Shown: positions 24,557 to 43,660 of the stretch, one piece after another | Layout: each line of letters begins with the position of its first letter | Numbering within the stretch: the stretch's first letter is position 1 | NCBI RefSeq assembly: GCF_900110855.1 | Contig: NZ_FOFA01000001.1 | Span: forward strand, 372,001-436,000 | Source: Microlunatus flavus | Lineage (GTDB): Bacteria > Actinomycetota > Actinomycetes > Propionibacteriales > Propionibacteriaceae | Direction of reading: 5' to 3' | DNA length: 64,000 bases | Translations under genes and position numbers: made by a program | The notes under the pieces: model-generated | What the model saw: only the letters and a program-made list of their open reading frames with translations | What the model was told of the DNA's origin: nothing | Databases searched by the model: none

Positions 24557-25534
24557 TCAGAGCAGCGAACGCGCCGCCTCGGCGATGCCGTCGGGCGACA
24601 TGCCGGCCCGGTCGAGCAGGAAGCCGGCCGAACCGGTCGGCTGGAACGCGTCGAACCCGAGGATCCGCACCCGCGTCGGGTGGTGCGCGACGACGGTCTC
24701 GGCGACCGCGCCGCCCAGGCCGCCGGCCGTCGTGGACTCCTCCGCGGTCACGATGCCCCGCGTCTCGCGGGCCGCGGCCAGGACCGCGTCGACGTCGAGC
24801 GGCTTGACCGTCGGCATCGAGACGACCCGGGCGGAGACGCCCCCCGCCTCGAGCTGCTCGGCCGCGGCCAGCGCCCGCCACAGCACCGTGCCGTTGCTGA
24901 TGATCGTCACGTCGTCGCCCTCGCGCACGGTGGTCGCCCGACCGGGGACGAACGTGTACGACTCGTCGAAGATCGCCGGCACCGACATCCGGCTCACCCG
25001 GATGAAGGCGGGACCCTCGGTCGCCGCGGCCCAGCGCATCGCCGCGGCGGTCTCGACCGGGTCGGCCGGCACGACGATCGTCATGTTGTCGATCGCCCGG
25101 AGCCAGGCGATGTCCTCGATCGACTGGTGGGTCGGGCCGAGCTCGCCGTACGCGACGCCGGGGCTCATCCCGCAGAGCTTGACGTTGCGGTCGGAGTAGG
25201 AGACGTCGGCCTTGATCTGCTCCAGCGCGCGCGCCGTGAGGAAGCACGACGCGGCCGAGACGAACGGGATGCGCCCGCCGTTGGCCAGGCCCGCCGCGAC
25301 GCCGACCATGTCCTGCTCGGCGATGCCGACGTTGATGAGCCGGTCCGGGAAGGCCTTCTTGAACGCGTCGAGCTTGCTCGAGCCGACCGAGTCGTTGACG
25401 ACCCCGACGATCCGGTGGTCGCTCCGGGCCAGGTCCGCCAGCGTGTCGACGTAGGCGTTGCGGCAGTCGAAGCGCGGCTGGTCGGCGATGGGGCCCCGCT
25501 CCGCGAGCACCGGGGGTGCCGTCGTGGTGGTCAT
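24557..25534 (-). CDS. Split transketolase, C-terminal subunit (AptB-like)
   Basis: The 325-aa protein holds the pyrimidine-binding (Pyr) and C-terminal transketolase domains without the TPP pyrophosphate domain. The catalytic Glu is E73 in NVGIAEQDMVGVAAGLA; SAASCFLTARALEQIK and GELGPTHQSIEDIAWLR are typical. It must pair with the upstream N-terminal subunit, which overlaps it by 4 bp (ATGA). Split transketolases occur in several sugar pathways, among them apulose-4-phosphate transketolase (AptAB). In this operon, with an isomerase and a divergent FGGY kinase, that role is plausible. It is the last gene of the leftward operon. Confidence 0.88.
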   Translation of the reverse strand: MTTTTAPPVLAERGPIADQPRFDCRNAYVDTLADLARSDHRIVGVVNDSVGSSKLDAFKKAFPDRLINVGIAEQDMVGVAAGLANGGRIPFVSAASCFLTARALEQIKADVSYSDRNVKLCGMSPGVAYGELGPTHQSIEDIAWLRAIDNMTIVVPADPVETAAAMRWAAATEGPAFIRVSRMSVPAIFDESYTFVPGRATTVREGDDVTIISNGTVLWRALAAAEQLEAGGVSARVVSMPTVKPLDVDAVLAAARETRGIVTAEESTTAGGLGGAVAETVVAHHPTRVRILGFDAFQPTGSAGFLLDRAGMSPDGIAEAARSLL

Positions 25535-26475
25535 CGCTGCCTCTCGTCGCCGGTCGCGCGCGCGACCTCCTCGTGCTTCTGCTCGGCCTGGAGCCGGTCC
25601 AGCTCGGCCAGCGCCTGCTCCAGCTGGGCCTCGTCGGGGACCTTGTGGTGCCAGGCCACGTTGTTGCTCATGTAGGAGATCGGGTGGCCCTTGTGGGTGT
25701 GCGCGATGACGAAGGTCGGCTTGCCCGGCCTGAACGGCACCGCCGACAGCACGTCGAGCAGCTCGCCGTGGTCGTGCCCGTTCACCTCCACGACCGCGAA
25801 CCCGAACGCCGCGGCCTTCGCGTCGAGTGGGTCGAGGTCGTTGGTCTCCCTCGTCGTCGCGCCCTGCTGCAGCCGGTTGCGGTCGACGATCACCGTCAGC
25901 GAGTCGAGCTCGTGGTGCGAGGCGGCCATCATGGCCTCCCAGTTGCTGCCCTCCTGCAGCTCGCCGTCGCCGGTGAGGACGTACGTGCGACGCCGCGACA
26001 CGTCGAGCTTGGCCGAGAGCGCGTGCCCGACGGCGATCGGCAGGCCGTGGCCGAGCGGGCCGGTGTTCGCCTCGACGCCGCGGACGTAGTTGCGGTTCGG
26101 GTGGCCGTTGAGCTTCGACAGCGGCTTGAGGAACGTCGCGAGCTCCTCGACCGGGAGGAAGCCGAAGGCGGCGAGCGTCGTGTAGAGCGCGCCGGCCACG
26201 TGGCCCTTCGACAGGATGAACCGGTCGCGCTCCGGGTCGTCGGGGTGGTCCGGGTCGACGTTCAGCACCGCGCCGTAGAGCGTGGCGAGCACGTCGATCG
26301 CGGAGAAGTCGCCGCCGATGTGGCCGGCGCCCGCGTGGTGGACCAGCTTGAGGTCCTGGAGGCGGATCTGGCGGGCCGCCTCGGCGATGTGCGCGACCTG
26401 CTCGGCCCGGCTCGCGTGCGGCGAGAGCCGGCCGAGCACCGGCATCGTCACGTGCTCGGGGGCGAGGGCGGTCAC
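25531..26475 (-). CDS. Split transketolase, N-terminal TPP-binding subunit (AptA-like)
   Basis: The 314-aa protein is the TPP pyrophosphate-binding half of a transketolase: HHAGAGHIGGDFSAIDVL, the GDG (169-171) to N200 thiamine motif, and LGHGLPIAVGHALSAK. GTG 26475 overlaps the isomerase stop (GTGA), and its own stop overlaps the start of the C-terminal subunit, so the three genes are translationally coupled. The complex transfers two-carbon units between ketose and aldose phosphates. Whether it is specific for apulose 4-phosphate or for ordinary pentose phosphates cannot be told from sequence alone. Confidence 0.88.
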   Translation of the reverse strand: MTALAPEHVTMPVLGRLSPHASRAEQVAHIAEAARQIRLQDLKLVHHAGAGHIGGDFSAIDVLATLYGAVLNVDPDHPDDPERDRFILSKGHVAGALYTTLAAFGFLPVEELATFLKPLSKLNGHPNRNYVRGVEANTGPLGHGLPIAVGHALSAKLDVSRRRTYVLTGDGELQEGSNWEAMMAASHHELDSLTVIVDRNRLQQGATTRETNDLDPLDAKAAAFGFAVVEVNGHDHGELLDVLSAVPFRPGKPTFVIAHTHKGHPISYMSNNVAWHHKVPDEAQLEQALAELDRLQAEQKHEEVARATGDERQR

Positions 26476-27485
26476 TGCTCGTCCGCCTGGGACACGGAGT
26501 CGGCCATCGAGCTGAGCAGGACCTTCTGGACGAGCTTCTGCGCGGCGAGCGCGTCGTGACGCGACTGCGCCTCGGCGAGCGCGTCCTCGTCGAGGGCGTC
26601 GAGCGCGCGGTGGATCGCCTTGAGGAACGTGATGGCCTGCTTGGCCGCCTGCACCCGGTCCTCGCGGAAGGGGAACTGGTCGAGCTGCCAGACGCCGTCC
26701 CAGCCGTTCGCGCGGAGGGTGTGGAAGAACTCGAAGGTCTCCACGAGGTGCACCGATCCGACGACCATGTCGTCGTCCCAGCCGCGGAAGTTGTCGTTGA
26801 CGTCGATCGCGAAGAGCTTGCCGGCGTCGATGCAGAGCTGTGCGGCGTCGGCCGGTGTCTCCAGCCCGTACAGCGAGTGGCCGAAGTCGAGCAGCACGCC
26901 GAGGTTGTCGCAGCCGGTCTGCTGGATCGCCAGCAGCGTGCGGGCCGCGTTCGGGAAGATGATCTTGTTGCGCGGCTCGCGCGGCTTGTACTCGATCACG
27001 AACTTGATCTCCGGGTGCGCGCTGCACAGCTCGCGCAGCGCGTCGACCGCGTTCTTCCACACCGAGCGGTAGTCGACCTGGAACGGGTAGTCCCAGCCGT
27101 CCTGGCCGAACCAGAGCTTGACGTAGTCGCAGCCCAGCTCGAGCGCCAGCTCGGTCGCCTCGTGCAGCAGCGCGATCGCCTTCGCCCGGACCGCCGGGTC
27201 GGGGTTGGTGATCGAGCCGCGGATGTAGTCCTTGTTGTAGATCTCCGGCGTGATCGCGACGGCGCGCAGGCCGTTGCGCGCCAGCGCCGCCTTGACGTCG
27301 TCGGTCGTGCCGTCGAAGCCCGCGAACGGCCAGTTGAGGTCGACCACGGACAGGTCGCCGACCGAGCCGGCGAGGTCGATCTGCTCCAGCAGCCCGACCG
27401 GCTCGCCGTAGCCCTCGGTCGCGTAGCGGTCGACGTAGGTCGCGAAGTGCCAGATGCCGGCACCGAAGACCGGGAGGTCGCTCAT
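26472..27485 (-). CDS. TIM-barrel sugar isomerase (candidate D-apiose isomerase)
   Basis: The 337-aa protein is a xylose-isomerase-like TIM barrel. Candidate metal ligands are E165 (FVIEYKPREPRN), D200 and H203 (LLDFGHSLYG) and D228-D231 (AIDVNDN). Family members isomerise or epimerise sugars or sugar phosphates. Its neighbours are a sugar ABC transporter upstream and the coupled split transketolase downstream, with an FGGY kinase across the divergent promoter. That set suits an aldose-to-ketulose step before phosphorylation, and D-apiose to D-apulose is my favoured reaction. The ATG has the RBS AGAAGGAG. The 114-bp gap before it holds no gene. Confidence 0.82.
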   Translation of the reverse strand: MSDLPVFGAGIWHFATYVDRYATEGYGEPVGLLEQIDLAGSVGDLSVVDLNWPFAGFDGTTDDVKAALARNGLRAVAITPEIYNKDYIRGSITNPDPAVRAKAIALLHEATELALELGCDYVKLWFGQDGWDYPFQVDYRSVWKNAVDALRELCSAHPEIKFVIEYKPREPRNKIIFPNAARTLLAIQQTGCDNLGVLLDFGHSLYGLETPADAAQLCIDAGKLFAIDVNDNFRGWDDDMVVGSVHLVETFEFFHTLRANGWDGVWQLDQFPFREDRVQAAKQAITFLKAIHRALDALDEDALAEAQSRHDALAAQKLVQKVLLSSMADSVSQADEQ

Positions 27486-27599
27486 CGGGTGTGCTCCTTC
27501 TGTGGAAGTGCGTGTGCTGAGCCTGCCGACCGGCGAGGAGCCGGTCCAGGGGTGGGCCCGTCAGGGGCCAGGGGCGTACGGGCTGCGGAGCCGGTGAGG

Positions 27600-28508
27600 T
27601 CAGCCCTTCTCGGCGCCCGCGGTGAGGCCGCCGACGATCCAGCGCTGCAGCAGCGCGTAGGCGATCAGGATCGGCACGACGGCGATGAGGATGCCGGCGG
27701 CGAGCCCGGTGTTGTTGTTGGAGAACTGTCCCTGGAAGCTGAGCAGCCCCACGGGGATGGTCTTGTTCGTGTCCGAGCTCAGGATGATCAGGGCGAAGAG
27801 GAACTCGTTCCAGGTCGCCACCGCGTCGAGGATCGCCACGGTGATGAGTGCCGGCAGGGACAGGGGCAGCACGAGGGTGAAGAAGATCCGCCACTCCGAC
27901 GCCCCGTCGATGCGGGCCGACTCGATGATCGAGTCCGGGATCTGGCGGAAGAAGGACTGCAGGATCAGGGTCTCCAGCGGGATCCCGAAGGCCAGGTAGG
28001 GGCCGACGAGGCCGAAGATGTTGTCGGTCAGCCCCGCGCTGCGCAGCATGATGAAGACCGGCACGATCGTGATGTAGATCGGGATCGTGAGCCCGAGGAA
28101 CACCGCGAACATCACCGTCCGGCGGAAGCGCATGTTCAGCTTGGCCAGCGCGAAGGCCAGCAGCGCCGAGATCAGCACCCCGAGCGGCACCTTGACCAGC
28201 AGCAGGGTCGCGGAGTTGCGGTAGGTGTCGGCGAACTTGCCGATCCCCCACGCCTGGCGGAAGTTGTCCCAGGTCCACTCGGTGGGCCACGACAGCGGTC
28301 CGTGCGCGACGAAGTCCGACAGCGGCCGCAGCCCGGTGGTGACCAGGAGCAGCAGCGGCGAGATCCAGAAGAGCGCGACGACGGAGAGGATGATCGTGAC
28401 GACGACGCCCCCACGCCTGCGGGGCCGCTCGGCGAGCGGGTCGTGACCGCTGACGACGGCGTCGGGCAGGGCCGCGGCGGCGGCGAGCCCGGAGGCCGAG
28501 GCGCTCAT
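27600..28508 (-). CDS. Sugar ABC transporter permease, MalG/UgpE type
   Basis: The 302-aa protein has six membrane helices and the EAA loop ESARIDGASEWRIFFTLVLPLSLPAL that docks the ATPase. It is the CUT1-family second permease, and its ATG overlaps the stop of the first permease gene (ATGA). As usual for actinobacterial CUT1 systems, no ATPase gene is in the operon; a shared MsiK-like ATPase elsewhere probably energises it. Together with the binding protein it should import the sugar or glycoside used by the downstream enzymes. Confidence 0.9.
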   Translation of the reverse strand: MSASASGLAAAAALPDAVVSGHDPLAERPRRRGGVVVTIILSVVALFWISPLLLLVTTGLRPLSDFVAHGPLSWPTEWTWDNFRQAWGIGKFADTYRNSATLLLVKVPLGVLISALLAFALAKLNMRFRRTVMFAVFLGLTIPIYITIVPVFIMLRSAGLTDNIFGLVGPYLAFGIPLETLILQSFFRQIPDSIIESARIDGASEWRIFFTLVLPLSLPALITVAILDAVATWNEFLFALIILSSDTNKTIPVGLLSFQGQFSNNNTGLAAGILIAVVPILIAYALLQRWIVGGLTAGAEKG

Positions 28509-29437
28509 GCGTGCTCCTTGGTCTGGGAGAGGACGTACGGGATGCTGACGGCGATCGCGATCACCGTGATCACCACGGCGATGGCCGTGCCGTAACCCGC
28601 TTGGTAGTACTGGAAGACGTTGGCGTACATCCAGGTCCCCATGACCTGCGTCGCCGTGCCCGGCCCGCCGTAGGTCATCGCGTAGATCATGTCGAAGACC
28701 TTGAACGAGTCGATCAGGGACAGCGCGATGACGATGTAGTGCGCCTGGCGCAGGCTCGGCAGCGTGATGAACCACAGCTGCTGGGACCGCGAGGCGCCGT
28801 CGACCGTGGCCGCCTCGTACAGCTCGGCGGGGATGCCCTGCAGAGCCGCGAGGTAGAGCAGCATCGGGAAGCCGACGCGGAGCCAGATCGCCGGGACCAT
28901 CACGGCCCACAGGGCCGTCGAGTCCTGCCCCAGCCACGGCTGGGCCAGGTCGCCGAGGCCGACGGCACGCAGCGTCTCGTTGATCACGCCGGAGTCGGGG
29001 TTGTAGAGCCAGCCCCAGATCGAGGCGATGGACACCAGCGGCAGGACGCAGGGGGTGTAGAAGAGCAGCCGCAGCGGCGTCTTGCCGCGCACCTTGCCGT
29101 TCAACAGGATCGCCAGCGTCAGCCCGATCAGGACCGGCACGACGATGGTGACGACGGTCCAGATCAGGTTGTTGAGCAGGGCCTGGATGACCACCGGGTC
29201 CTGGGCCATCGCCGTGTAGTTCGCCAGCCCGACGATGTTGTACGTGGGGCTCAGGCCGTCCCAGTCGGTGAAGCTGAAGAACAGCGACGTGGCGGCCGGG
29301 TAGACGAGGAAGGTCGCGTACACGGCGAGGGCCGGGAGCGCGAACAGCCACGGGCGCAGGCCGCCGTACCTCTTCTTGTTCTGCCGGACCCCGGCCACCC
29401 GTGAGGTGGCCGGGGCGACAGCGGTCGCGGTCGCCAT
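28505..29437 (-). CDS. Sugar ABC transporter permease, MalF/UgpA type
   Basis: The 310-aa CUT1-family permease has six helices and the EAA motif (YEAATVDGASRSQQLWFITLPSLR). The N-terminal basic segment NKKRYGGLRPWLFALPALAVY is typical. It lies 4 bp downstream of the solute-binding protein gene and overlaps the MalG-type gene, so all three are one transcription unit. Confidence 0.9.
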   Translation of the reverse strand: MATATAVAPATSRVAGVRQNKKRYGGLRPWLFALPALAVYATFLVYPAATSLFFSFTDWDGLSPTYNIVGLANYTAMAQDPVVIQALLNNLIWTVVTIVVPVLIGLTLAILLNGKVRGKTPLRLLFYTPCVLPLVSIASIWGWLYNPDSGVINETLRAVGLGDLAQPWLGQDSTALWAVMVPAIWLRVGFPMLLYLAALQGIPAELYEAATVDGASRSQQLWFITLPSLRQAHYIVIALSLIDSFKVFDMIYAMTYGGPGTATQVMGTWMYANVFQYYQAGYGTAIAVVITVIAIAVSIPYVLSQTKEHA

Positions 29438-29441
29438 CAGG

Positions 29442-30746
29442 TCAGGACTTCGGGAGCCCGGCCGCGACGGTCTGCATCTGCTTGGCCGCGTCGGCCGGCG
29501 ACATCTTGCCCTGCAGGACGTCGCTCTGGACCGAGAAGTACTGGTCGGCCTGCTTCTTCGGGAACGCCTGGTCCTGGATCGTGTAGAACGGGCTCGTCTT
29601 GCTGATCTCGGACCACTCGTACGACAGCGGCAGCTTGGACTTGTCGGGCTCCGCGCCCGTCACGGTCGAGGCGGTGATCGACAGCGCCTTCTGCGAGTCG
29701 GGCTGCAGGATGTGGTCGATCAGCGCCGCCGCCTTGTCGGGGTTGCCGGACTTGGAACTGATCATGTAGCCCTCGACGAAGCCGGAGTGCCGCGCCGGGG
29801 TCTGGTCGGTCGGCAGCAGGAACGTCCCGAAGTCGCTCGAGCTCTTCTTCGCCGCCTGGATGCCGGCCGCCTCGGTCCAGGTGCCGGTCAGGGTGTAGGC
29901 GGCCTTGCCCGAGACGTAGTCGGTCTCGACGTCGCTGGGGTCCAGACCGAGGGCGCCGTTGGGCAGCCACTTGCTGTCCTGCCACTTCTTGAAGTTCGTG
30001 AACGCGGTCACGACCTCCGGCCGGTCCCACGACTCGGCGCCGGTCAGGAGCTTGTCGTGCAGGTCCGGGCCGGCGGAGGTCTCGAGCAGGTACTCGAAGA
30101 GGCGCATGATGTCCCAGCCGTACTTGCCGCCGAGGGTGCAGGGCGTGATGCCGGCCGCGACCAGCTTGGTGTTGGCCTCCTCCAGCTCGGCGTAGGTCTT
30201 CGGCGGCGCGCTGATGCCGGCCTTGGAGAAGGCGGCCTTGGAGTACCAGCCGCCGATCGCGTTGGCGACGAAGGGCGCCCCGGCCTTGACGCCGTCGAAG
30301 GTCATGCCGTCGATGGCGTTGCTGTTGAGCCGGGAGTCCCAGCCGAACTTCGAGTAGTACGGGCTCAGGTCCATCGCCTGCTTCGCCTTGGCGAAGGGGG
30401 CGCCGATCTGGCCGCCCCAGATGCGCCAGATGTCGGGGCCGGAGCCGCCGAGCAGCTCGGCGCGGAGCTTGTCGGGGTAGACCGCCGCGCCCGAGCCGGG
30501 AAGGCTGTCGACGCGCGTGGTCGTGCCGTTCTGGCTGTCGAACTTCGCGACCAGGTCCTTGAGCAGGCCGATGGTCGTGTCGTCCTCGTAGGTGAAGAGG
30601 CGCAGGTTGTTCGAGGCGGGGCCGCTGCTGGCGGCGGTCCCGCCGCTGGGCGCGGTGCCGGTGCCCGTGCAGGCGGCGGTCCCGGCGACGGCCGCGGCGG
30701 CGGACAGTCCGAGGAATCCACGGCGGGTCCAGGTCGAGCGGGTCAT
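29442..30746 (-). CDS. Extracellular sugar-binding lipoprotein, ABC type
   Basis: This 434-aa CUT1 solute-binding protein has a Tat-like signal (TRRGFLGLSAAAAV) and lipobox AGTAAC with C26 as the lipidated residue. The mature protein has the family 1 fold: DSQNGTTTRVDSLPG, GGSGPDIWRIWGG, AAYTLTGTWTEA and FVEGYMISSKSGNPDKAAALI. It is the most abundant component expected and determines ligand choice. The ATG has a strong RBS (AAAGGAG). The ligand is unknown; context suggests apiose or an apioside. Confidence 0.9.
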   Translation of the reverse strand: MTRSTWTRRGFLGLSAAAAVAGTAACTGTGTAPSGGTAASSGPASNNLRLFTYEDDTTIGLLKDLVAKFDSQNGTTTRVDSLPGSGAAVYPDKLRAELLGGSGPDIWRIWGGQIGAPFAKAKQAMDLSPYYSKFGWDSRLNSNAIDGMTFDGVKAGAPFVANAIGGWYSKAAFSKAGISAPPKTYAELEEANTKLVAAGITPCTLGGKYGWDIMRLFEYLLETSAGPDLHDKLLTGAESWDRPEVVTAFTNFKKWQDSKWLPNGALGLDPSDVETDYVSGKAAYTLTGTWTEAAGIQAAKKSSSDFGTFLLPTDQTPARHSGFVEGYMISSKSGNPDKAAALIDHILQPDSQKALSITASTVTGAEPDKSKLPLSYEWSEISKTSPFYTIQDQAFPKKQADQYFSVQSDVLQGKMSPADAAKQMQTVAAGLPKS

Positions 30747-30824
30747 GCCAATCTCCTTTGATCGCGGTGCGGGGCGGAGCGGGTGGGGCTGAGCGGGTCG
30801 AGCGGGGTACGGGGCCCGGCGGGG

Positions 30825-31721
30825 TCAGGAGGTGCGGGCGGGGTGCTCGCGGCCGAAGCGGCGGATCTTGGCGAACATGTCCTCGAGCAGGTAGCGGATG
30901 TCGACCTGCTCGAAGACCTTGACCGGGTGGCCGGCGCCGGGCAGGTAGCCGCCGTCGACGCCGAAGCGGCGCGACGGGATGGTGCGCGAGACGCTGCCGC
31001 GCGGGTTGAGGACGAGCGAGATCGCGGGCGAGTCACCCAGCGAGCGCGACTCGATCGGCTCGCCGTGGTGGGCCTCGTTGAACTCGACCAGCTGGGCGAT
31101 CAGGTAGTCGGCCAGCTCGCTGGTGCCGGCGATCTTCTCCTCGAGCTCGGCGTAGCCGACCGACACCATCGAGTAGATGGGCGCGGGCACCTGCCAGAGG
31201 GTGATGCCGGAGTCGAAGACGACGTTGGCCGCGGCGATGTCGTTGCGCAGGTTGAACTCGACGGCCGGGTAGGACCAGTCGACGTCGTAGCCCATCCCTC
31301 CGATCCAGACCACGACGACGTCGCGGTCGACGATCGCGGGATCGGTGAGGATCGCCGTCGCCATGTCGGTGAGCGGGCCGAGGAAGGTCACGAACAGCGG
31401 GTCGTCGGCCGAGGCGAGCTTGCTCTCGGCCACGATCAGGTCCGCGCCGGGCGACGGCGCCGGCGTCGACTCGTCGGCGATGCCGCGCTCCGCCCCGTTG
31501 GCCACGGTCACGTCGTCGCGCCCGAGCAGCCGCAGCAGCAGGTCCACCTCGGCCCGGGAGTCGAGCATCGACGTCTGGCTGCGCTCGGCGCCGAAGTGCG
31601 CGGGCACGATGCCCCGCACGTCGAGCGTCGGGGAGAGCAGCGCGTGGACGATCGCGTACTGGTCGTCGGCCTCGTTCTTGGCGTCGGTGTCGACGATCAG
31701 GCGGCGACGGGTGGCCGTCAT
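30825..31721 (-). CDS. Nucleoside hydrolase-like protein, first gene of the leftward operon
   Basis: The 298-aa protein has the Asp cluster of IU-nucleoside hydrolases in the form D11-T-D13-x-x-N-E-x-D19-D20-Q, plus FLGPLTDMATAIL, VWIGGMGYDVDW, EFNLRNDIAAANVVFDSG and a late Asp near VFEQVDIRYLL. Family members cleave N-glycosidic bonds of ribofuranosides using a Ca2+-bound water. The early motif departs from the classical DTDPGxDDA, so a changed substrate is likely. It leads the operon that encodes a sugar transporter, an isomerase and a transketolase. It may hydrolyse imported furanosides; that is inference. Confidence 0.82.
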   Translation of the reverse strand: MTATRRRLIVDTDAKNEADDQYAIVHALLSPTLDVRGIVPAHFGAERSQTSMLDSRAEVDLLLRLLGRDDVTVANGAERGIADESTPAPSPGADLIVAESKLASADDPLFVTFLGPLTDMATAILTDPAIVDRDVVVVWIGGMGYDVDWSYPAVEFNLRNDIAAANVVFDSGITLWQVPAPIYSMVSVGYAELEEKIAGTSELADYLIAQLVEFNEAHHGEPIESRSLGDSPAISLVLNPRGSVSRTIPSRRFGVDGGYLPGAGHPVKVFEQVDIRYLLEDMFAKIRRFGREHPARTS

Positions 31722-31760
31722 CGGTCTCCTCGGGCTCCGGGCACCTTCGTCGGTGCCACT

Positions 31761-31787
31761 TCTTGCAGTACCGTATAGTCTTGCAGT
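31761..31787. promoter_or_regulatory. Twin operator repeats TCTTGCAGT around a shared -10
   Basis: TCTTGCAGT occurs at 31761-31769 and again, same orientation, at 31779-31787, 18 bp apart. Between and partly under them lies CCGTATAGT, which reads as TATAGT rightward and TATACG leftward. The two divergent sugar operons start on either side. The arrangement suits a regulator such as the SorC-family protein encoded at 34980, but binding is inference. Confidence 0.55.
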
Positions 31788-31799
31788 GCGAGGGGTCAA
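31772..31799 (-). promoter_or_regulatory. Leftward promoter of the candidate apiose operon
   Basis: On the minus strand TTGACC (31799-31794) is followed by 16 bp and TATACG (31777-31772). This is the best sigma70-like promoter in the region and would start transcription about 40 bp before the nucleoside-hydrolase-like gene. Confidence 0.6.
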
Positions 31800-31851
31800 G
31801 GCCCCCCGAGACGTCTCTGAGAACCTGTCACCTCATCGCCGAGGAGCGCCC

Positions 31852-33339
31852 GTGGACCGTCGACCTCCCGTGGTCCTGGCCGTCGACCAGGGCACCACGA
31901 ACACCAAGGCCGTGCTCGTCGACGCGACCGGCCACGTCGCCGGCGTCGGCTCGGCGCCGGTCGGCGTCACCTCCCCCTGGCCGGGCTGGGTGGAGCAGGA
32001 CGCCGAGCGGATCTGGCGGAGCGTGCTCGACGCCACCGGCGGCGCGCTGGCCGCCGCCGGCGGGGTCGACGGCGGACCGGTCGCCGCGGTGGCGCTCTCC
32101 ACCCAACGTGAGTCGGTGGTGGCCTGGCGCGCGAGCACCGGCGAGCCCCTCGGCCCGGTGCTCGGATGGCAGGACAGCCGGACGGCCGCCTGGTGCGCCG
32201 CCCACGTCGACGAGGCCGCCCGTACGGAGGTCCGCGTCCGGACGGGCCTGCGCGTCGACGCGATGTTCTCGGCCCCCAAGCTGCGCTGGCTGCTCGACCA
32301 CGTGCCCGACGGAGTTCCGCGTGACGACGTCCGCGTCGGCACGGTCGACTCCTGGCTGGTCTGGCGCCTCACCGGCGGTCGGGAGCACCTGACCGAGGCC
32401 GGGAACGCGTCGCGCACCCTGCTGTACGACGTCACCGGGCTGGGGTGGTCGGAGCCGCTGCTCGACGTCTTCGGCGTGCCCCGTCACGTCCTGGCCGACC
32501 CCCGGGCGTCCGACGCCGGCTTCGGCACCTGCGCGGGCGTCGGGCTCGTCGTGGACGGCACCCCGGTCGCCGCGGTCCTGGCCGACTCGCACGCGGCCCT
32601 GTTCGGCCACGGCTGCACGGAGCCCGGCATGGCGAAGGCGACCTACGGGACCGGCTCGTCGGTCATGACGCCGGTCGCCGCGCTGCCCGGCCGCGGGTCG
32701 TCCGTCCCGACGACCCTGGCCTGGCTGCTCGACGCGACGCCCACGTACGCGCTCGAGGGCAACATCCTCTCCTCCGGCGCGACGCTGGCCTGGGCGGCCG
32801 GGCTCCTCACGGCGGGCGACGTCGAGCGCCTCGTCGCCCTCGCCGGCACCGTCGCGGACGCGGGCGGCGTGAGCCTCGTGCCGGCCTTCTCGGGCCTGGG
32901 TGCGCCGCACTGGGACCGGGAGGCGACCGCCGTGCTGTCCGGCATGACCCCCGCGACGTCGCCGGCCCACGTCGCGCGCGCCGCGGTCGAGTCGGTGGCC
33001 CACCAGATCGCCGACGTCGTCGACGTCGTCGAGGCCACGACCGGTCCGCTGCGCACGTTCCGCGCCGACGGGGGCGCGACCGCCGCCGACGCGCTGATGC
33101 AGGACCAGGCCGACCTGACCGGGCGCACCGTCGAGGTGACCGACGTCGCCGAGGTCTCCGCGCTCGGGGCGGCCAAGCTGGCCTGGCGCTCGCTCGGCGA
33201 GGCCGACGCCTGGCTGCCGCCCCGGGTCCGGCGCCGGCTCACCCCGCAGGAGACGCGGCCCGACCGGGCGGAGCGCCGCGCGCGCTGGGCCGGCGAGGTC
33301 GAACGGGCCCGGTTCCGCCCCGGCGGGACGTCGCGGTGA
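31852..33339 (+). CDS. FGGY-family carbohydrate kinase (candidate apulose kinase)
   Basis: The 495-aa FGGY kinase has the N-terminal phosphate motif VLAVDQGTTNTKAVLVD, WVEQDAERIW, GWQDSRTAAW, and the C-terminal ATP-domain motifs TYGTGSSVMTP and FRADGGATAADALMQDQADL. It is closest in layout to glycerol/xylulo-kinases. The GTG has an RBS (GAGGAGCG) 4-11 nt upstream. Its stop overlaps the DUF4038 gene (GTGA). Sharing a promoter region with the isomerase/transketolase operon suggests it phosphorylates the ketose made there, which I take to be D-apulose. D-xylulose remains an alternative. Confidence 0.86.
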   Translation: MDRRPPVVLAVDQGTTNTKAVLVDATGHVAGVGSAPVGVTSPWPGWVEQDAERIWRSVLDATGGALAAAGGVDGGPVAAVALSTQRESVVAWRASTGEPLGPVLGWQDSRTAAWCAAHVDEAARTEVRVRTGLRVDAMFSAPKLRWLLDHVPDGVPRDDVRVGTVDSWLVWRLTGGREHLTEAGNASRTLLYDVTGLGWSEPLLDVFGVPRHVLADPRASDAGFGTCAGVGLVVDGTPVAAVLADSHAALFGHGCTEPGMAKATYGTGSSVMTPVAALPGRGSSVPTTLAWLLDATPTYALEGNILSSGATLAWAAGLLTAGDVERLVALAGTVADAGGVSLVPAFSGLGAPHWDREATAVLSGMTPATSPAHVARAAVESVAHQIADVVDVVEATTGPLRTFRADGGATAADALMQDQADLTGRTVEVTDVAEVSALGAAKLAWRSLGEADAWLPPRVRRRLTPQETRPDRAERRARWAGEVERARFRPGGTSR

Positions 33340-34904
33340 GCACGGCGGCGCAGTGGCGCCAGGTCGAGGTCGCGTTCTCCGGTCCGGCGGTCGACCGCCC
33401 GTACGTCGAGGTCGAGGCCTGGGTCGAGCTCGTGCACGACGACGGCACCCGTCTCGTACGGCCGCTGTTCTGGGACGGCGCCACCACCTGGCGGCTGCGG
33501 TTCAGCTCTCCGCTGCCGCACGGTCGCTGGACCTGGACGGTCGCGGGGCCGGACGCCGACCGGCTCACCCCGACCGCCGGAACCTTCGACGCCGCGCCCG
33601 CCCAGACCGGGCACGCCCACCCGGGCCTGGTCCACGGCTTCCCGCGCCTGTCGCCGGAGGGCCGCTCGCTGGTGCACCCGGACGGCCGGGACTGGTTCAT
33701 GGTCGTCGACACCGCGTGGGCGATGCCCTGGCGGGCGGGCGTCGAGGACGTGGAGGCGTACGCGCGCGACCGGGCGGCCAAGGGCTTCGACGCCGTCCTG
33801 CTGATGAGCGTCCAGCCCGACATGCGCGCGGTCGGGCCCGACGCGCGCGGCGTCGACGAGGGGTTCGCCGTCGGGTTCCGCGACCTGCCCGACGGCCGCC
33901 TGACCGACCTGGTCCCCGACTACTTCGCGCACCTCGACCTCCTCGTCGAGGTCCTCCTGCGCCACGGCATCACCCCGGTCCTGCAGCCGCTGTTCTTCGG
34001 CTTCGGCTGGAAGGGCCTCGACGTCGCCGGCCCCGTCGTCCCCCCGGACGAGCTTGCGCGCTACGCCCGCTACCTCGTCGCGCGCTACGGCGCGCAGCCG
34101 GTGGTCTGGCTGCCGGGCGCCGACGGCGCCGGCGACGAGCCGGGGATCGAGGCGGCCGGGCGCGAGATCGAGGCCTGGGACGCCTACGAGCACCCGACCG
34201 GCATCCACTACCGCCCGCACCACCGCAACGACGTCCACCAGGACGCGCCGTGGCTCGACTTCCAGGCGTGCCAGACCGGCCACGGCGGGGACCACGTCCC
34301 CGACCGGGTCGCGACGATGTGGGCCGCCCGTCCGGTCAAGGCGGTCATGAACCTCGAGCCGACCTACGAGCACACCGGCCGCCCCGGCGTGGCGGAGGGC
34401 TGGTGGCAGGGCCACGAGGCGTGGAGCAACCTCTGCGCGGGTGCGCTGCTCGGGGTCGCGTACGGGGCGGCGAGCCTGTGGCAGTGGCGCCTCCACCCGG
34501 GCGAGCCGGGCCACGCGCCCTTCTTCCTCGCCGCCGACGCCGGCTGGCGCGAGGCGCTCGACTTCGAGGGCAGCCGCTACGTCGGGCTGGTCGGGCGCAT
34601 CCTCGAGGGGCTGCCGCTGCGCGGCGCCGCGCCGTGCTGGGACGTCGGCCTGACCGCCCGGGGCCTCCTCGACCCCGGCGTGCTCTACCTCGCGTACGCC
34701 GAGCACGGCGGTCCCTTCGTCCTGCTGGACGGCGAGGGCCGGGTGCCCGGCCGCTGGTGGCTGGTCGACCCGCGCGACGGCTCGGTGCTCGGCAGCGGCG
34801 CCACGCCGCCGGACGGGACGCCGATCGAGCACGCGTACGACCAGCCCGCGGTGCTCATCTGCGTCGCCGAGGAGCCCGCGATCGCCCGGCGTGCAGCAGA
34901 ATGA
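33336..34904 (+). CDS. DUF4038-domain glycoside hydrolase (apiosidase-like)
   Basis: The 522-aa protein has an N-terminal DUF5060-type beta-sandwich (about 1-88) and a DUF4038 TIM barrel (about 95-440), the domain found in GH140 apiosidases. Candidate catalytic acids are D263 in VVWLPGADGAGDE and E341 in AVMNLEPTYEHTG. The C-terminal part looks like a small beta domain. No signal peptide is present, so it should act in the cytoplasm on an imported glycoside. GTG 33336 overlaps the kinase stop by 4 bp. Other DUF4038 proteins act on different sugars, so apiose specificity is inference. Confidence 0.8.
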   Translation: MSTAAQWRQVEVAFSGPAVDRPYVEVEAWVELVHDDGTRLVRPLFWDGATTWRLRFSSPLPHGRWTWTVAGPDADRLTPTAGTFDAAPAQTGHAHPGLVHGFPRLSPEGRSLVHPDGRDWFMVVDTAWAMPWRAGVEDVEAYARDRAAKGFDAVLLMSVQPDMRAVGPDARGVDEGFAVGFRDLPDGRLTDLVPDYFAHLDLLVEVLLRHGITPVLQPLFFGFGWKGLDVAGPVVPPDELARYARYLVARYGAQPVVWLPGADGAGDEPGIEAAGREIEAWDAYEHPTGIHYRPHHRNDVHQDAPWLDFQACQTGHGGDHVPDRVATMWAARPVKAVMNLEPTYEHTGRPGVAEGWWQGHEAWSNLCAGALLGVAYGAASLWQWRLHPGEPGHAPFFLAADAGWREALDFEGSRYVGLVGRILEGLPLRGAAPCWDVGLTARGLLDPGVLYLAYAEHGGPFVLLDGEGRVPGRWWLVDPRDGSVLGSGATPPDGTPIEHAYDQPAVLICVAEEPAIARRAAE

Positions 34905-34979
34905 CCACCCGCACCTGACGACGCTCATCCGCGGCCCGGACGCCGGCGGCCAGAGCCCGACCTCGAGGAGGCGCACGGC

Positions 34980-35966
34980 ATGACCGCCTCCGCGCGTCCG
35001 GCGCCCCGCGCCGTCCCCGACGGGCAGCTGCGGCTGATCACGAAGGTCGCCCGGATGTACCACGAGCGCGGCATCCGCCAGGTCGAGATCGCCGAGACCC
35101 TGCACCTGTCCCAGGCGCGGGTCTCCCGGCTGCTCAAGCGCGCAGCCGAGCTGGGGATCGTCCGGACCGTCGTGGTGGTCGCGCAGGGCGTGCACACCGA
35201 GCTGGAGGAGGCGCTCGAGGAGCGCTACGGGCTAGCCGAGGCCCTGGTGGTCGACGTCGAGGGCAGCGAGGCCGACATCCTGGCCGGGCTCGGCTCGGCC
35301 GGCGCCACCTACCTCGAGGCGACCCTCACCGGCGGCGAGCGGATCGGCATCGCCCCGTGGAGCCAGACGCTGCTCTCCATCGTCGAGCGGATGCGCCCGC
35401 TGCGCCTGGCGGGCGCGGACAACGTCGTCCAGCTGATCGGCGGCATCGGCCAGCACTCCGCGCAGGCGCAGGCCAACCGCCTGCTCGGCGACCTCGCCGG
35501 GCTGCTGGGCGCGAACGCGACGTTCGTCGCCGCGCCGGGCCTGGTGGCCAACGCCGCCGTGCGCGACTCCCTGTTCGGCGAGCCGGGCATGCGGGCCATC
35601 CGCGACCAGTGGGCCGCGCTCACCATGTGCCTGGTCGGCATCGGCCGGCTGCCGCCGTCGGAGTTCCTGCGCGCGAGCGGCAACGCCGTGGACCCGCAGG
35701 ACCAGGCGCGCCTCACCGCGGCCGGCGCCGTCGGCGACGTCTGCCACCGCTTCTTCGACGCGTCCGGCGCCCCCGTCGTCACCGAGCTCGACGACCGGGT
35801 GGTCGGCATCGACGCCGACACCCTGCGGGCCGTGCCGCGCCGCATCGGCATCGCCGGCGGGCCGGCCAAGCGGGACGCCGTGCGCGCCGCCGTGGTCGGC
35901 GGCTGGGTCAACGTCCTCGTCACCGACATCGGGACGGCCCACGCCCTGCTCGACCCCGCGCCCTGA
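34980..35966 (+). CDS. SorC/DeoR-type sugar-binding transcriptional regulator
   Basis: The 328-aa protein has an N-terminal helix-turn-helix (about 22-55: RQVEIAETLHLSQARVSRLLKRA) and a C-terminal sugar-binding SorC domain with IGIAPWSQTLLSIVERM, VVQLIGGIGQHSAQ, ALTMCLVGIG and GIAGGPAKRDAVRAAV. SorC regulators respond to phosphorylated sugars. The gene lies 75 bp after the DUF4038 gene, with its own RBS (GAGGAGGCG). It probably controls the divergent sugar operons through the TCTTGCAGT repeats. I see no copy of that repeat directly upstream of its own start. Confidence 0.88.
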   Translation: MTASARPAPRAVPDGQLRLITKVARMYHERGIRQVEIAETLHLSQARVSRLLKRAAELGIVRTVVVVAQGVHTELEEALEERYGLAEALVVDVEGSEADILAGLGSAGATYLEATLTGGERIGIAPWSQTLLSIVERMRPLRLAGADNVVQLIGGIGQHSAQAQANRLLGDLAGLLGANATFVAAPGLVANAAVRDSLFGEPGMRAIRDQWAALTMCLVGIGRLPPSEFLRASGNAVDPQDQARLTAAGAVGDVCHRFFDASGAPVVTELDDRVVGIDADTLRAVPRRIGIAGGPAKRDAVRAAVVGGWVNVLVTDIGTAHALLDPAP

Positions 35967-40293: not shown

Positions 40294-40429
40294 AGAACAA
40301 CGCCACCTCGCGCGTTCGTCCTAGTCAGGGCGATGTTCGTCACCGGGGGAGGTGCATCCGACCCCACCTGGAGCCGGGAAGGCAGGGTGCCTGTCATTAT
40401 CGGCAGCACTCGAGGGAGAGGAACGGCCC

Positions 40430-41749
40430 ATGTCTTTGAACCGTCGACAGGTCCTGGCAGGCGGCCTCGGTCTCGGCGCCGCCGTCGGGCTCGGCGCGTG
40501 CTCCGGGCTCACCAGCAAGGCGGGCAGCACCGCCCCGTCCTCCGGCGCCAGCGGTGGCTCGGGCCCCGTCGAGCTGACCTTCGTCAACTGGTCCGGCGAC
40601 GCGGAGAAGGCGGCGTTCGACGCCGTCATCGCGAAGTTCCAGCAGGCCAACCCCGGCATCACGATCAAGACCGACACGGTCCCGTACGCGAGCGTCCAGA
40701 CCAACCTGGACACCCGCTTCCAGGCGGGCAACCCGCCGGACCTGTTCCGCGTCTCCTACATCGACATGGGGCAGTACACGAGCCAGGACGTCCTGCTCGA
40801 CCTGTCCGACAGCCTCGACGCGAACGCCTTCGAGCCGGGCCTGTTCCAGGCCGTCGTCGCCAACGGCAAGCCGTACGGCGCGCCGCACCAGATCGACACC
40901 ACCGCGATCCTCTACCGCAAGGACGCCTTCGAGGCCGCCGGCATCACCGACGTGCCGACGACGCTGGAGGAGGCCTGGACCTGGGAGCAGTTCAGCGAGG
41001 CGGCGGACAAGCTGGCCAAGGTCACCAAGAAGGGTCAGTCGGCCTTCATCTACGACTGGCAGAGCGCGGGTGCGTACCGCTGGCTCTCCTGGCTCTTCGA
41101 GGCCGGCGGCGCGCTGCTGACCCCCGACCTCAAGTCGGCGGCGATCGACTCCGACGCGGGCCGCAAGGCGCTCGACTTCACCAAGGGCTTCTTCGACAAG
41201 GGCTGGGTCGCCAAGAACACCTCGGTCAAGAGCACGACCTACCCCGACAGCGCGTTCATCTCGGGCACGGTCGCGATGGCCTTCGCGGGCAGCTTCCTCG
41301 TGCCGGCCGTCGACGTCGGGGTGAAGAAGAAGTTCGAGTACGGCGCGATGCCGCAGCCGCGTGACGTCGCCGCCTCCACCGACCTCGGCGGCAACGCGGT
41401 CGTGGCGCCGAAGGACGGCAAGAACACCGAGGCCGCGGCCAAGTTCCTGCAGTTCCTCGTCAGCGAGGAGTCCATGCGGACCTACTGCCAGGCCACCAAC
41501 GAGCTGCCGACGCTGAAGAGCCTGACCTCCGCGCAGCTCGACTTCGACATCCGTCCCGACCTGATGGCGCCCTTCGTGCTGCAGGCCAAGACGCTCACCC
41601 CGGAGCAGGTCTCGCAGGTCACGGTGCCGCAGTTCGCCGACCTCAACCTGGCGCTGCAGAACGAGCTGGAGAAGGCCTTCCTCGGTGGAAGGTCGTCGGC
41701 CGACACCGCCACCGCGCTGGCCGCGGCGGTGCAGAAGGCCCTGCAGTGA
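40430..41749 (+). CDS. Extracellular sugar-binding lipoprotein, ABC type (second system)
   Basis: This 439-aa CUT1-type solute-binding protein has N-terminal NRRQVLAGG and lipobox GLGAC with C24 lipidated. The mature part has PVELTFVNWSGDAEKAAFDAVI, RFQAGNPPDLFRVSYIDMGQ, GKPYGAPHQIDTTAILYRKD and GTVAMAFAGSFLVPA. The ATG has a strong RBS (GAGGGAGAGGAAC). Its stop overlaps the first permease GTG (GTGA). The ligand is unknown. It is not closely similar to the binding protein at 29442. Confidence 0.9.
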   Translation: MSLNRRQVLAGGLGLGAAVGLGACSGLTSKAGSTAPSSGASGGSGPVELTFVNWSGDAEKAAFDAVIAKFQQANPGITIKTDTVPYASVQTNLDTRFQAGNPPDLFRVSYIDMGQYTSQDVLLDLSDSLDANAFEPGLFQAVVANGKPYGAPHQIDTTAILYRKDAFEAAGITDVPTTLEEAWTWEQFSEAADKLAKVTKKGQSAFIYDWQSAGAYRWLSWLFEAGGALLTPDLKSAAIDSDAGRKALDFTKGFFDKGWVAKNTSVKSTTYPDSAFISGTVAMAFAGSFLVPAVDVGVKKKFEYGAMPQPRDVAASTDLGGNAVVAPKDGKNTEAAAKFLQFLVSEESMRTYCQATNELPTLKSLTSAQLDFDIRPDLMAPFVLQAKTLTPEQVSQVTVPQFADLNLALQNELEKAFLGGRSSADTATALAAAVQKALQ

Positions 41750-42702
41750 GCTCGGCGGCCGCGCTGGCCGCCGGTGAGTCTCCCGTCGCCCCGGCGGGAG
41801 GCTCCGCCTCGCGCCGACGTCGTCGGGGGGCGATCTGGGAGCCCTCGGCGCTGTTGTTCGTCGGGCCGTCGGTGCTGCTCGCGGTCGCGTTCCTGATCCT
41901 GCCGATGCTCGGGTCGTTCTACTACTCGACCCGCAAAGTCTCGCCGCTGTCGGGGACGAGCACCCCGCGCGGGCTCGACAACTACACGACCATGCTGTCG
42001 GACCCGACGTTCCTGCGGGCCCTGCTCAACACCGCGCTGTTCACGGTGATCACAGTGCCGCTGAGCATGGGCCTCGGGCTCGCGCTCGCGGTGCTCATGA
42101 ACTCGGTGCTGCCCTGGCGCAAGGTCTGGCGCACCGTCGTCTACCTGCCCCTGGTGATCTCCGGCGTCTCGGTCGGGCTGATCGGCACCTTCCTCTACAA
42201 CGAGGTCATCGGCGTGGTGAACAAGCTGCTGCTCGCGCTCGGCGCGAACGGCGGCATCCCCTGGCAGTCGAACGGCTTCTGGGCCTTCACCTCGGTCGTG
42301 CTGGTGACCATCTGGATCCGCGTCGGGTTCAGCATGATCATCTACCTCGCGGCGCTGCAGGCGGTGCCCGGCGACCTGTACGAGGCGGCCTCGCTCGAGG
42401 GCGCGAACGGCTGGCAGCAGTTCCGCCACATCACGTTCCCGCTCGTCGGCCCGGCGACGTTCTTCCTCATCATCATGAACGTGATCTACAGCTTCCAGGT
42501 CTTCGACACGATCTTCGTGCTGACCAACGGCGGCCCCGGCAACAGCACCGAGGTGCTCGGCACCTGGGCGTACAAGGTCGCCTTCGGGCCCACCCGCGAC
42601 CAGGGCTACGGCGCCGCGATCGGCGTCGTGATCTTCGTCCTGACGTTGATCTTCACCATCGTGCAGTGGCGCGCGAACCGCAACCGGGACGTCGTCGCAT
42701 GA
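41746..42702 (+). CDS. Sugar ABC transporter permease, MalF type
   Basis: The 318-aa permease has six helices and the EAA loop (YEAASLEGANGWQQFRHITFPLVGP). The basic N-terminal segment SRRRRRGAIWE precedes helix 1. GTG 41746 overlaps the binding-protein stop by 4 bp, and the second permease starts about 60 bp downstream. No ATPase is encoded nearby. Confidence 0.9.
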   Translation: MSSAAALAAGESPVAPAGGSASRRRRRGAIWEPSALLFVGPSVLLAVAFLILPMLGSFYYSTRKVSPLSGTSTPRGLDNYTTMLSDPTFLRALLNTALFTVITVPLSMGLGLALAVLMNSVLPWRKVWRTVVYLPLVISGVSVGLIGTFLYNEVIGVVNKLLLALGANGGIPWQSNGFWAFTSVVLVTIWIRVGFSMIIYLAALQAVPGDLYEAASLEGANGWQQFRHITFPLVGPATFFLIIMNVIYSFQVFDTIFVLTNGGPGNSTEVLGTWAYKVAFGPTRDQGYGAAIGVVIFVLTLIFTIVQWRANRNRDVVA

Positions 42703-42760
42703 CGGGGACCAGGACCGCCGGTCAGAGCACCAGCGGCACCGACCAGACCAGGAGCCGTTG

Positions 42761-43660
42761 ATGGCCGTCACCACGAGCCAGGCCCGGGCGATCGGGCGTC
42801 CGACAGAGCGCTCGACCACCGCGCGGGGTCCGATGTCGCGGCGTTCGCGCTCCAGGGTCGCGGTCGTCGTCCGCGTCGTCGTGTCGGTCGTCGTGTCGGT
42901 GATCATGGCGTTCCCCCTGTGGGTCATGGTCGTGACCGCCGTGTCGGGCCAGTCGGTGTTCTCCTCCCAGCTGGACCTCTGGCCGGGGAGCTTCACGCTG
43001 TCCAACTTCGCGCGGGTCTTCCAGGCCTGGCCGGTCACCGCCTGGTTCTCCAACTCGGTCACCGTCACCGCGCTGACGACGATCATCTCCGTGGTCGTCA
43101 GCGTCATGGCGGGCTACGGCTTCGCCAAGCTCCGCTTCCCGCTGAAGACGCCGCTGTTCCTGCTGCTCCTGTCGACGATGATGATCCCGACGCAGGCGAT
43201 CCTCGTGCCGCAGTTCCGGCTCGTGAACGCCATGGGCCTGGTCGGCACCTTCTGGGCCGTGATCATCCCGGGCGCGGCCGCGACCTTCGGGATCTTCCTC
43301 GCCCGCCAGTTCATGCTGGCCATCCCCAACGAGCTGATCGAGGCCGCGAAGATCGACGGTGCCGGGCCGGTGCGGATCTTCTGGAGCATCGTGCTGCCGC
43401 TGTCGAAGCCGCTGCTCGCGGTGCTGACCCTGCTCAGCCTCATGTACCAGTGGAACGACTTCCTCTGGCCCCTCATCGTGCTGCGCGACCCGAGCCTCTA
43501 CACGCTGCCGATCGGGCTGCAGTTCCTGCAGGGCCAGTACCAGACCGACTACGGCGCCCTGATGGCGATGACGCTGATCACCGTCGGCCCGCTCGTCGTG
43601 CTGTTCCTGGTCTTCCAGCGCTGGTTCGTGCAGGGGTTCGCGACCTCCGGCATCCGCTGA
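42761..43660 (+). CDS. Sugar ABC transporter permease, MalG type
   Basis: The 299-aa permease has six helices and the EAA motif IEAAKIDGAGPVRIFWSIVLPLSKPLL. ATG 42761 has the RBS AGGAGC; a TTG three nt upstream is less likely. With the two preceding genes it completes a CUT1 importer lacking an ATPase. The Gfo/Idh/MocA gene 445 bp downstream could act on the imported sugar, but an opposite-strand gene lies in between. Confidence 0.9.
   Translation: MAVTTSQARAIGRPTERSTTARGPMSRRSRSRVAVVVRVVVSVVVSVIMAFPLWVMVVTAVSGQSVFSSQLDLWPGSFTLSNFARVFQAWPVTAWFSNSVTVTALTTIISVVVSVMAGYGFAKLRFPLKTPLFLLLLSTMMIPTQAILVPQFRLVNAMGLVGTFWAVIIPGAAATFGIFLARQFMLAIPNELIEAAKIDGAGPVRIFWSIVLPLSKPLLAVLTLLSLMYQWNDFLWPLIVLRDPSLYTLPIGLQFLQGQYQTDYGALMAMTLITVGPLVVLFLVFQRWFVQGFATSGIR

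Follow-up and report, generated by a model that had tools for sequence, protein, structure and literature searches.

A 64,000-nucleotide stretch of DNA (the window) within the 4.79-Mb genome of Microlunatus flavus, contig NZ_FOFA01000001.1, contains ten intact open reading frames between positions 24557 and 35966. They form two divergent operons and probably encode the import of small apiose-bearing glycosides and the breakdown of D-apiose. To our knowledge, little is known about how soil bacteria harvest apiose from its glycosides. The sugar is present in rhamnogalacturonan II (RG-II) and in more than 1,200 plant metabolites, as stated in the excerpted text of PMC10602602. The features of the locus are as follows (aa, amino acids; ABC, ATP-binding cassette; TIM, triose-phosphate isomerase).

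24557..25534, minus strand: C-terminal half of a split transketolase, AptB-like, 325 aa (Pfam PF02779/PF02780, Transket_pyr/C)
25531..26475, minus strand: N-terminal half of the transketolase, AptA-like, 314 aa, GTG start (Pfam PF00456, Transketolase_N)
26472..27485, minus strand: D-apiose isomerase-like TIM barrel, ApsI-like, 337 aa (AP_endonuc_2; 3ktc_A, 443 bits)
27600..28508, minus strand: CUT1 ABC permease 2, 302 aa (Pfam PF00528, BPD_transp_1; GlcU/UgpE/MalG NCBIfam matches under the cut-off)
28505..29437, minus strand: CUT1 ABC permease 1, 310 aa (Pfam PF00528, BPD_transp_1; GlcT/UgpA/MalF NCBIfam matches under the cut-off)
29442..30746, minus strand: solute-binding lipoprotein (SBP), 434 aa (Pfam PF01547, SBP_bac_1; twin-arginine/lipobox-like N-terminus by eye)
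30825..31721, minus strand: nucleoside-hydrolase-like protein (NH), 298 aa, first gene of the minus operon (Pfam PF01156, IU_nuc_hydro)
31722..31851, no strand: divergent promoter/operator region, 130 bp, between the NH and kinase genes (from the gene coordinates)
31852..33339, plus strand: FGGY kinase, AplK-like, of the GlpK-related branch, 495 aa, GTG start (Pfam FGGY_N/C)
33336..34904, plus strand: GH140-like hydrolase with an N-terminal DUF5060, 522 aa, GTG start (PF13204, Apiosidase, formerly DUF4038)
34980..35966, plus strand: SorC-family sugar-responsive regulator, 328 aa (Pfam PF04198, Sugar-bind)

The minus operon reads NH-SBP-permease-permease-isomerase-tktA-tktB and the plus operon kinase-GH140-SorC. 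Start and stop codons overlap by 4 bp between permease 1 and permease 2, isomerase and tktA, tktA and tktB, and kinase and GH140. The original prediction had described two divergent operons with all of these genes, which is borne out by the intact reading frames and the Pfam assignments. The NH gene likely starts at 31721. An alpha/beta-hydrolase-type gene and an alpha-amylase-family gene flank the locus, which suggests that the borders were placed correctly. In the printed stretch of the 130-bp divergent gap, CTTGCAGT is found twice by eye. Counts of 8-mers in 41 upstream regions established no shared SorC operator, the best words occurring in at most 17 of the 41.

The catabolic core and its conservation

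A known route of apiose breakdown leads from D-apiose to D-apulose and then to apulose 4-phosphate, which together with glyceraldehyde 3-phosphate gives dihydroxyacetone phosphate and xylulose 5-phosphate. Among solved structures, the isomerase of the window matches 3ktc best (443 bits over residues 4-328), followed by a xylose isomerase with 81 bits. We take 3ktc to be Pectobacterium ApsI, later assigned as a D-apiose isomerase. This entry was not linked to a named Pectobacterium cluster; the best 80 of 342 matches in named genomes are all actinobacterial by name. The isomerase is 60-62% identical to those of the plasmid clusters of Rhizobium SL42 and Streptomyces NBC_00184. The AptA-like half is 48% identical to AptA of E. 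coli SE15 and 56% to that of Rhizobium SL42, and the AptB-like half 41% to AptB of E. coli SE15 and 60-61% to those of Rhizobium SL42 and Streptomyces NBC_00184. For the kinase the identities are 39% (E. coli SE15 AplK, 501 columns), 43% (Rhizobium) and 48% (Streptomyces), and for the SorC regulator 52% (Streptomyces) and 35% (the regulator of the E. coli SE15 cluster). On the Rhizobium SL42 and Streptomyces NBC_00184 plasmids, the isomerase, tktA, tktB and kinase genes form a single run, and the Streptomyces set is surrounded by pectinesterase, GH28, GH95 and beta-L-arabinofuranosidase genes.

The excerpted text of PMC13001218 gives locus tags for aplK, aptA and aptB in E. coli SE15, describes a Pectobacterium carotovorum cluster with apsI and an Escherichia cluster without it, and cites Carter et al. 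2018 and MetaCyc PWY-8089 for the D-apiose isomerase/transketolase pathway (ApsI, AplK, AptA, AptB). It also describes D-apiose as supporting the growth of strains that carry such clusters, namely three of E. coli, one of E. fergusonii and P. carotovorum; SE15 itself is not among the strains named in that excerpt.

The best models for the kinase are those of glycerol kinases and not of pentulokinases, and its score of 401 bits lies under the GlpK cut-off of 590 (NCBIfam equivalog TIGR01311). A tree was built of 36 kinases, of which 24 were chosen from the 85 found in the loci described below. The window kinase falls into one clade with the AplK proteins and GlpK (Shimodaira-Hasegawa-like approximate likelihood ratio test, SH-aLRT, 99), and XylB and LyxK lie outside it; within the clade, AplK is not resolved from GlpK. 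A role as the housekeeping glycerol kinase was rejected, because a separate paralogue (42%) elsewhere in the genome pairs with E. coli GlpK. A canonical pentose locus was likewise ruled out, the isomerase being far from xylose and L-rhamnose isomerases and the kinase far from XylB and LyxK. No grouping of the two enzymes with those of D-xylose/L-ribulose type is seen, and the D-apiose isomerase/FGGY kinase/split-transketolase core of the original prediction is well supported by similarity and conserved linkage. With high confidence, the core can be assigned by its sequence as a putative new member of this known route.

Named genomes were scanned with an isomerase alignment. The best 80 of the 342 relatives were kept, all actinobacterial by name, and the counts use the 66 loci of at least 20 kb, with 14 shorter ones excluded. 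Here tktA and tktB are each present in 64 loci, the kinase in 65 and SorC in 60; NH is present in 21, GH140 in 14, a CUT2 binding protein in 38 and a CUT1 binding protein in 17 (20 if distant ones are included). The 22 loci whose isomerase is at least 74% identical to that of the window contain NH in 20 cases, GH140 in 12, CUT1 in 16 and CUT2 in 5, and the remaining 44 contain NH once, GH140 twice and CUT2 33 times. The full window content (core, NH, CUT1 and GH140) is found in 11 of the 66. The recurrence of the core in dozens of named genomes, and of the full content in these 11 loci, puts the locus beyond chance. At the genome level (96 genomes), an isomerase orthologue (E<1e-90) is found in 17, NH in 27 and both in 15.

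The core genes are also seen in other arrangements. A Rahnella plasmid (L190:11001-15741) carries AptAB-like genes (AptA 79% identical to that of E. coli) together with an annotated fucose isomerase and another kinase, a third kind of front end for AptAB. Plasmids of Sinorhizobium, Deinococcus and Shinella (L192, L193, L194) contain clusters of split transketolase, FGGY kinase and sugar-binding regulator with a sugar ABC importer and short-chain dehydrogenases/reductases (SDRs); these have no annotated isomerase of the ApsI kind, resembling the E. coli cluster. In the closest relative by isomerase (G003, 98%), the core operon has an SDR between transketolase and kinase (L142:3909-4676); the E. 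coli cluster has two SDRs in the place of the isomerase. On a plasmid of Erwinia sp. E602 (L160, L191), an AptAB pair and an apionate-type cluster are separated by about 23 kb. Sequence clustering places a gene of RibB type (3,4-dihydroxy-2-butanone-4-phosphate synthase) after tktB in 10 of the 11 apiose loci of Kribbella, with Pfam run on L040 only. In Rhizobium SL42 a ribB gene (50% identical) adjoins the apiose kinase, and a lumazine synthase gene adjoins a Pantoea apionate-type cluster; the coordinates for these observations are L040:12820-13434, L035:14673-15317 and L159:9982-10419. Two isomerase matches, G009:C1:5268436-5269428 and G083:C2:514160-515116, have one internal stop codon each.

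The GH140-like hydrolase and the importer

The hydrolase is the sole PF13204 match in the genome, with 216 bits (cut-off 26.5). The putative catalytic pair of BT_1012 aligns with its D263 and E341, which are identical in 8 of 8 aligned sequences; a hand-counted, constant offset of 20 served to convert the chain positions of BT_1012 to residue numbers. Asp187 and Glu284 are proposed as this pair in the excerpted text of PMC4032388, and PMC7939467, as excerpted, describes BT_1012 as a beta-apiosidase of RG-II. The AlphaFold2 model of the window hydrolase (mean predicted local distance difference test, pLDDT, 73) has 5msy, 8t9w, 4qfu and 3kzs as its nearest folds, at about 20% identity. The protein can be placed in GH140 with good confidence from its sequence, and hydrolysis of beta-D-apiofuranosides is its predicted activity. 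In genome G024, the gene run with the first PF13204 protein continues with a second one (L146:12483-13811; 207 bits, 26% identity with the hydrolase of the window). In a Kribbella locus (L040, G100:C8:103171-104140) the GH140 match is split over two pieces in different frames and was counted as present; the gene may therefore be broken there or contain a sequencing error.

The original prediction stated that the hydrolase lacks a signal peptide. A crude hydropathy check, with starts chosen by the analysis's own gene caller, agrees: no export signal is evident in the window GH140 protein and 13 relatives longer than 480 aa. The importer as encoded consists of a binding protein and two permeases, and the best solved relative of the binding protein is the chitin-oligosaccharide-binding NagB2 (99 bits). 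Just past the locus, at window positions 40352-43660, lie a second CUT1-type binding protein (Pfam) and probable permeases.

All 14 GH140 loci among the 66 have a CUT1 binding protein (12 close, 2 distant), and none has a CUT2 binding protein, which is present in 38 of the 52 others. The Fisher p values, which ignore descent, are 5e-7 for GH140 versus CUT2 and 5e-10 for GH140 with CUT1. On the isomerase tree there are four independent pairs, in which CUT2 goes the opposite way in 1.5 on average and never the same way, and CUT1 goes the same way in 3.4. NH occurs without CUT1 in 5 of the 21 NH loci. Because the hydrolase has no evident export signal and pairs with CUT1, the earlier proposal that intact small apiosides are imported and cleaved in the cytoplasm is favoured. 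This import-and-cut-inside layout would be a new variation on the known pathway. The locus suggests that actinobacteria import intact apiosides and cleave them inside the cell, in contrast to the RG-II machinery of Bacteroides, which is export-directed.

The nucleoside-hydrolase-like protein and its surroundings

NH matches PF01156 with 75 bits (cut-off 34). Its AlphaFold2 model (pLDDT 89.7) has the nucleoside hydrolase fold, with a Foldseek TM-score of 0.78 by query length to plant NRh2b (6zk1). All 15 aligned members of the subfamily keep the Asp-Asp pair, the Glu-x-Asn motif and the last Asp. The residue aligned to the RihA His (of LHD) before the last Asp, presumably His241 in Crithidia numbering, is Gly in all 15, and the subfamily thus lacks the His of nucleoside hydrolases. 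Where RihA has the Asn of the GN motif, these sequences have Ala, Ser, Thr, Phe or Met, and they share no conserved Asn ahead of Glu155. Four of the 15 come from places that lack apiose genes, so that the two contexts cannot be told apart by the active site.

In known nucleoside hydrolases the kept residues bind calcium and the 2,3-diol of ribose, and the lost ones contact the base or the 5-hydroxyl. Apiofuranose shares the diol with ribose and lacks a 5-hydroxyl of this kind. Classical nucleoside hydrolases cleave nitrophenyl ribofuranoside, an O-glycoside. Since the ligands of the sugar diol are kept and the base-side residues are lost, NH may be a new type of apiosidase, a candidate new enzyme proposed from gene context and active-site reasoning. 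A wider proposal is tentative and rather unlikely to hold in full. It says that the NH-like subfamily, with its DTDAKNEADD motif and Gly for the catalytic His, is an unrecognised class of intracellular beta-D-apiofuranosidases of nucleoside hydrolase fold. The calcium site would read the 2,3-cis-diol of apiofuranose, the residues that read the base and the 5'-hydroxyl having been given up, and the enzyme might be the common entry point of three apiose routes (isomerase/transketolase, apionate decarboxylase and apionate RuBisCO-like). Should NH prove to be an apiosidase, one branch of the proteins that now carry the name nucleoside hydrolase would be wrongly annotated, and the trimming of flavonoid and saponin apiosides could draw on a new furanoside glycosidase fold. 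A literature search found no paper joining apiose with nucleoside hydrolase and none joining apiose with apulose; it covered part of the literature, so that such papers may exist. L104, L171 and L172 contain a distant branch of NH at about 33-36%, with motifs such as DNDFSGDPD. Its neighbours are, by eye, CUT1-like importers or genes of glycoside-hydrolase type, and in one case it stands within an apiose locus.

The 80 named loci were picked via the isomerase, so that NH linkage is biased there, and the counts of NH contexts therefore use places found by NH itself. Such a search returned 28 places (E<=1e-80) spread over 27 of 96 genomes, the window included, and 6 weaker places (5 stretches, 35-38%) with no apiose marker. 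Markers were sought within 9 kb of NH or to the end of the fetched stretch, often 6-7 kb. Of the 28 places, 15 have isomerase, transketolase or apionate-type genes nearby, 4 have GH140 or kinase genes and 9 have no marker; with the window excluded, 18 of 27 are by apiose-type genes and 9 are not. In one of the latter (G071), the genes next to an NH with 67% identity resemble, by eye, those of a cytosine permease and a deaminase. The window has nucleobase permease and deaminase genes (Pfam) at 55322-57171, and the similar-looking pair in G071 directly precedes the NH orthologue. In a tree made by a quick method, the window clade of NH has 37 rows for 36 distinct genes, 34 of them by apiose-type genes, a number biased by the gathering of most of them via the isomerase.

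NH is also found beside genes of other apiose routes. In G006 and G024, a PF16896 gene and a small TIM barrel gene, which we take to encode D-apionate oxidoisomerase and 3-oxoisoapionate decarboxylase, respectively, stand beside NH. Among 396 genomes of the phylum, with at most six candidates scored per genome, NH at E<=1e-50 was found in one further genome, G377, where a small TIM barrel and a protein that shares 73% identity with the PF16896 protein of G024 are close by. The same PF16896/small TIM barrel pair occurs on Pantoea and Erwinia plasmids with major facilitator superfamily, dihydroxyacetone-kinase-family and triose-phosphate-isomerase genes. Six of 58 plasmid records with an NH match were inspected. 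On the Microvirga ossetica plasmid, NH follows a RuBisCO-like protein, a four-carbon acid sugar kinase, a PF16896-type protein and a CUT1-type importer, and the M. lotononidis plasmid has the same markers. These two Microvirga plasmids are linked to apiose-type genes; those of Paenarthrobacter and Nonomuraea gerenzanensis are partial with no marker, and those of Mesorhizobium and Ensifer have a distant NH (about 30%) beside ABC transporters and no apiose genes. The enzymes of one D-apionate route are named in the excerpted text of PMC11747546, and a RuBisCO-like step of a D-apionate route in that of PMC6302742.

In G003 the core (tktB-tktA-SDR-kinase/SorC-isomerase) is in one place, and an NH-CUT1-GH140 module with a LacI regulator lies more than 1 Mb away on the same single contig. 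The locus of the window is a fusion of two modules that are found apart elsewhere, the apiose core and the NH-CUT1-GH140 module of uptake and hydrolysis.

The apiose reading, its alternatives and known systems

With a probability of about 0.77, the locus serves the utilisation of D-apiose and apiosides by import, release in the cytoplasm and breakdown through isomerase, kinase and transketolase, and is built of two fused modules. The binding protein and the two CUT1 permeases, together with an ATPase from elsewhere, would import small apiose-bearing glycosides. The GH140-like hydrolase, and probably also NH, would then release D-apiose inside the cell. Judging from similarity, the ApsI-like isomerase would convert D-apiose to D-apulose, the AplK-like kinase would phosphorylate this to apulose 4-phosphate, and AptAB would combine the product with glyceraldehyde 3-phosphate to yield dihydroxyacetone phosphate and xylulose 5-phosphate. 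SorC would sense a compound of the pathway and control both operons.

Several observations weigh against this reading. The identity of 3ktc as a proven D-apiose isomerase is an assumption. Three isomerase orthologues on Pantoea plasmids, examined out of 11 Pantoea records, are single genes with no transketolase gene nearby. The hydrolase is only distantly related to proven apiosidases, with about 20% identity in the structural match. The exclusion of CUT2 by GH140 comes down to the four independent pairs and is not significant, a level that four pairs cannot reach; nor is it a strict rule, since L091 (11.7 kb, below the length rule) carries GH140 and CUT2 together. The CUT1 ABC importer of the original prediction stands as far as the binding protein and the two permeases are concerned. 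Pfam finds no ATP-binding subunit among the ten genes; the ATPase would have to be supplied by another part of the genome, the usual arrangement in CUT1 systems of actinobacteria. The claim that every step is encoded here was thus too strong: the locus has no transporter ATPase, its hydrolase is distant from proven apiosidases and the role of NH was left unexplained.

Two observations speak for an uptake module that imports an unrelated glycoside and adjoins the apiose genes by chance. One is the set of nine NH places without an apiose-type marker (G071, G012, G059, G062, G065, G068, G074, G077 and G080). The other is G015 (95% complete), which has the complete NH-CUT1-GH140 module and neither an isomerase orthologue nor a PF16896 gene, and is the main fact left unexplained by the apiose reading. 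Against the chance association, the linkage of NH recurs with different downstream genes in two phyla: the isomerase route, the PF16896 and small TIM barrel genes of G006, G024 and G377, and the RuBisCO-like, four-carbon acid sugar kinase and PF16896-type genes of the two Microvirga plasmids. The hydrolase of the module, moreover, belongs to the apiosidase family. An unrelated glycoside is improbable.

Somewhat less probable still is that the enzymes handle another sugar, the split transketolase, FGGY kinase and SorC being a general cassette for various ketose phosphates and the isomerase acting on a different aldose. AptAB-kinase sets indeed occur with other front ends, a point that counts against the apiose reading too: plasmids of Sinorhizobium, Shinella and Deinococcus combine them with SDRs and importers of CUT2 type, and Rahnella with the annotated fucose isomerase. 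The kinase, moreover, is close to glycerol kinase with no clean separation in the tree. The isomerase, however, is the pathway-specific part and accompanies the transketolase halves in 64 of the 66 loci, and a PF13204 gene joins isomerase loci on separate branches, with four changes on the tree. The E. coli type of cluster with two SDRs likewise supports growth on D-apiose, according to the excerpted text of PMC13001218.

Nucleoside salvage, in which NH would cleave ribonucleosides, the importer carry nucleosides and the isomerase and kinase process ribose, is suggested by the fold and family of NH and by the permease/deaminase genes of G071 and the window, and is very improbable given the Gly in place of the RihA His in 15 of 15 sequences, the loss of the Asn of the GN motif, the resemblance of the binding protein to oligosaccharide-binding proteins and the lack of an evident role for the GH140-like hydrolase.

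The preferred reading, an apioside utilisation locus, can be compared with known systems. Like the nucleoside hydrolases of PF01156 (RihA and plant NRh), NH has the fold, the Asp-Asp pair, Glu-x-Asn and the last Asp. Unlike them, it has Gly for the His that precedes the last Asp, two of the canonical positions lack a conserved Asn, and the first motif, DTDAKNEADD, is two residues longer than what we take to be the usual DxDxxxDD. The D-apionate routes (D-apionate oxidoisomerase, 3-oxoisoapionate kinase and RuBisCO-like protein) are absent from the window, and PF16896 has no match in its genome; elsewhere their probable members, as assigned by Pfam family, neighbour NH-like proteins and sometimes a CUT1 importer or GH140. 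With the GH140 beta-apiosidases BT_1012 (3kzs/5msy) and 8t9w, the window hydrolase shares the PF13204 catalytic domain, the Asp/Glu pair and the nearest folds; it differs in having no evident signal peptide, an N-terminal DUF5060 and no PF12904 C-terminal match, besides the low identity given above.

The E. coli SE15 apiose cluster has AplK, AptA, AptB and a regulator that are 39%, 48%, 41% and 35% identical to their window homologues. Unlike the window, it has two SDRs, no ApsI and no annotated glycosidase, and its importer has a D-ribose-type binding protein and DUF2291. With the D-apiose isomerase/transketolase pathway as a whole, the locus shares a clustered isomerase, FGGY kinase, split transketolase and sugar-binding regulator. 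It differs from that pathway in its divergent two-operon layout, in the replacement of the CUT2 importer by a CUT1 importer, and in the addition of a probably cytoplasmic GH140-like hydrolase and of the NH-like protein.

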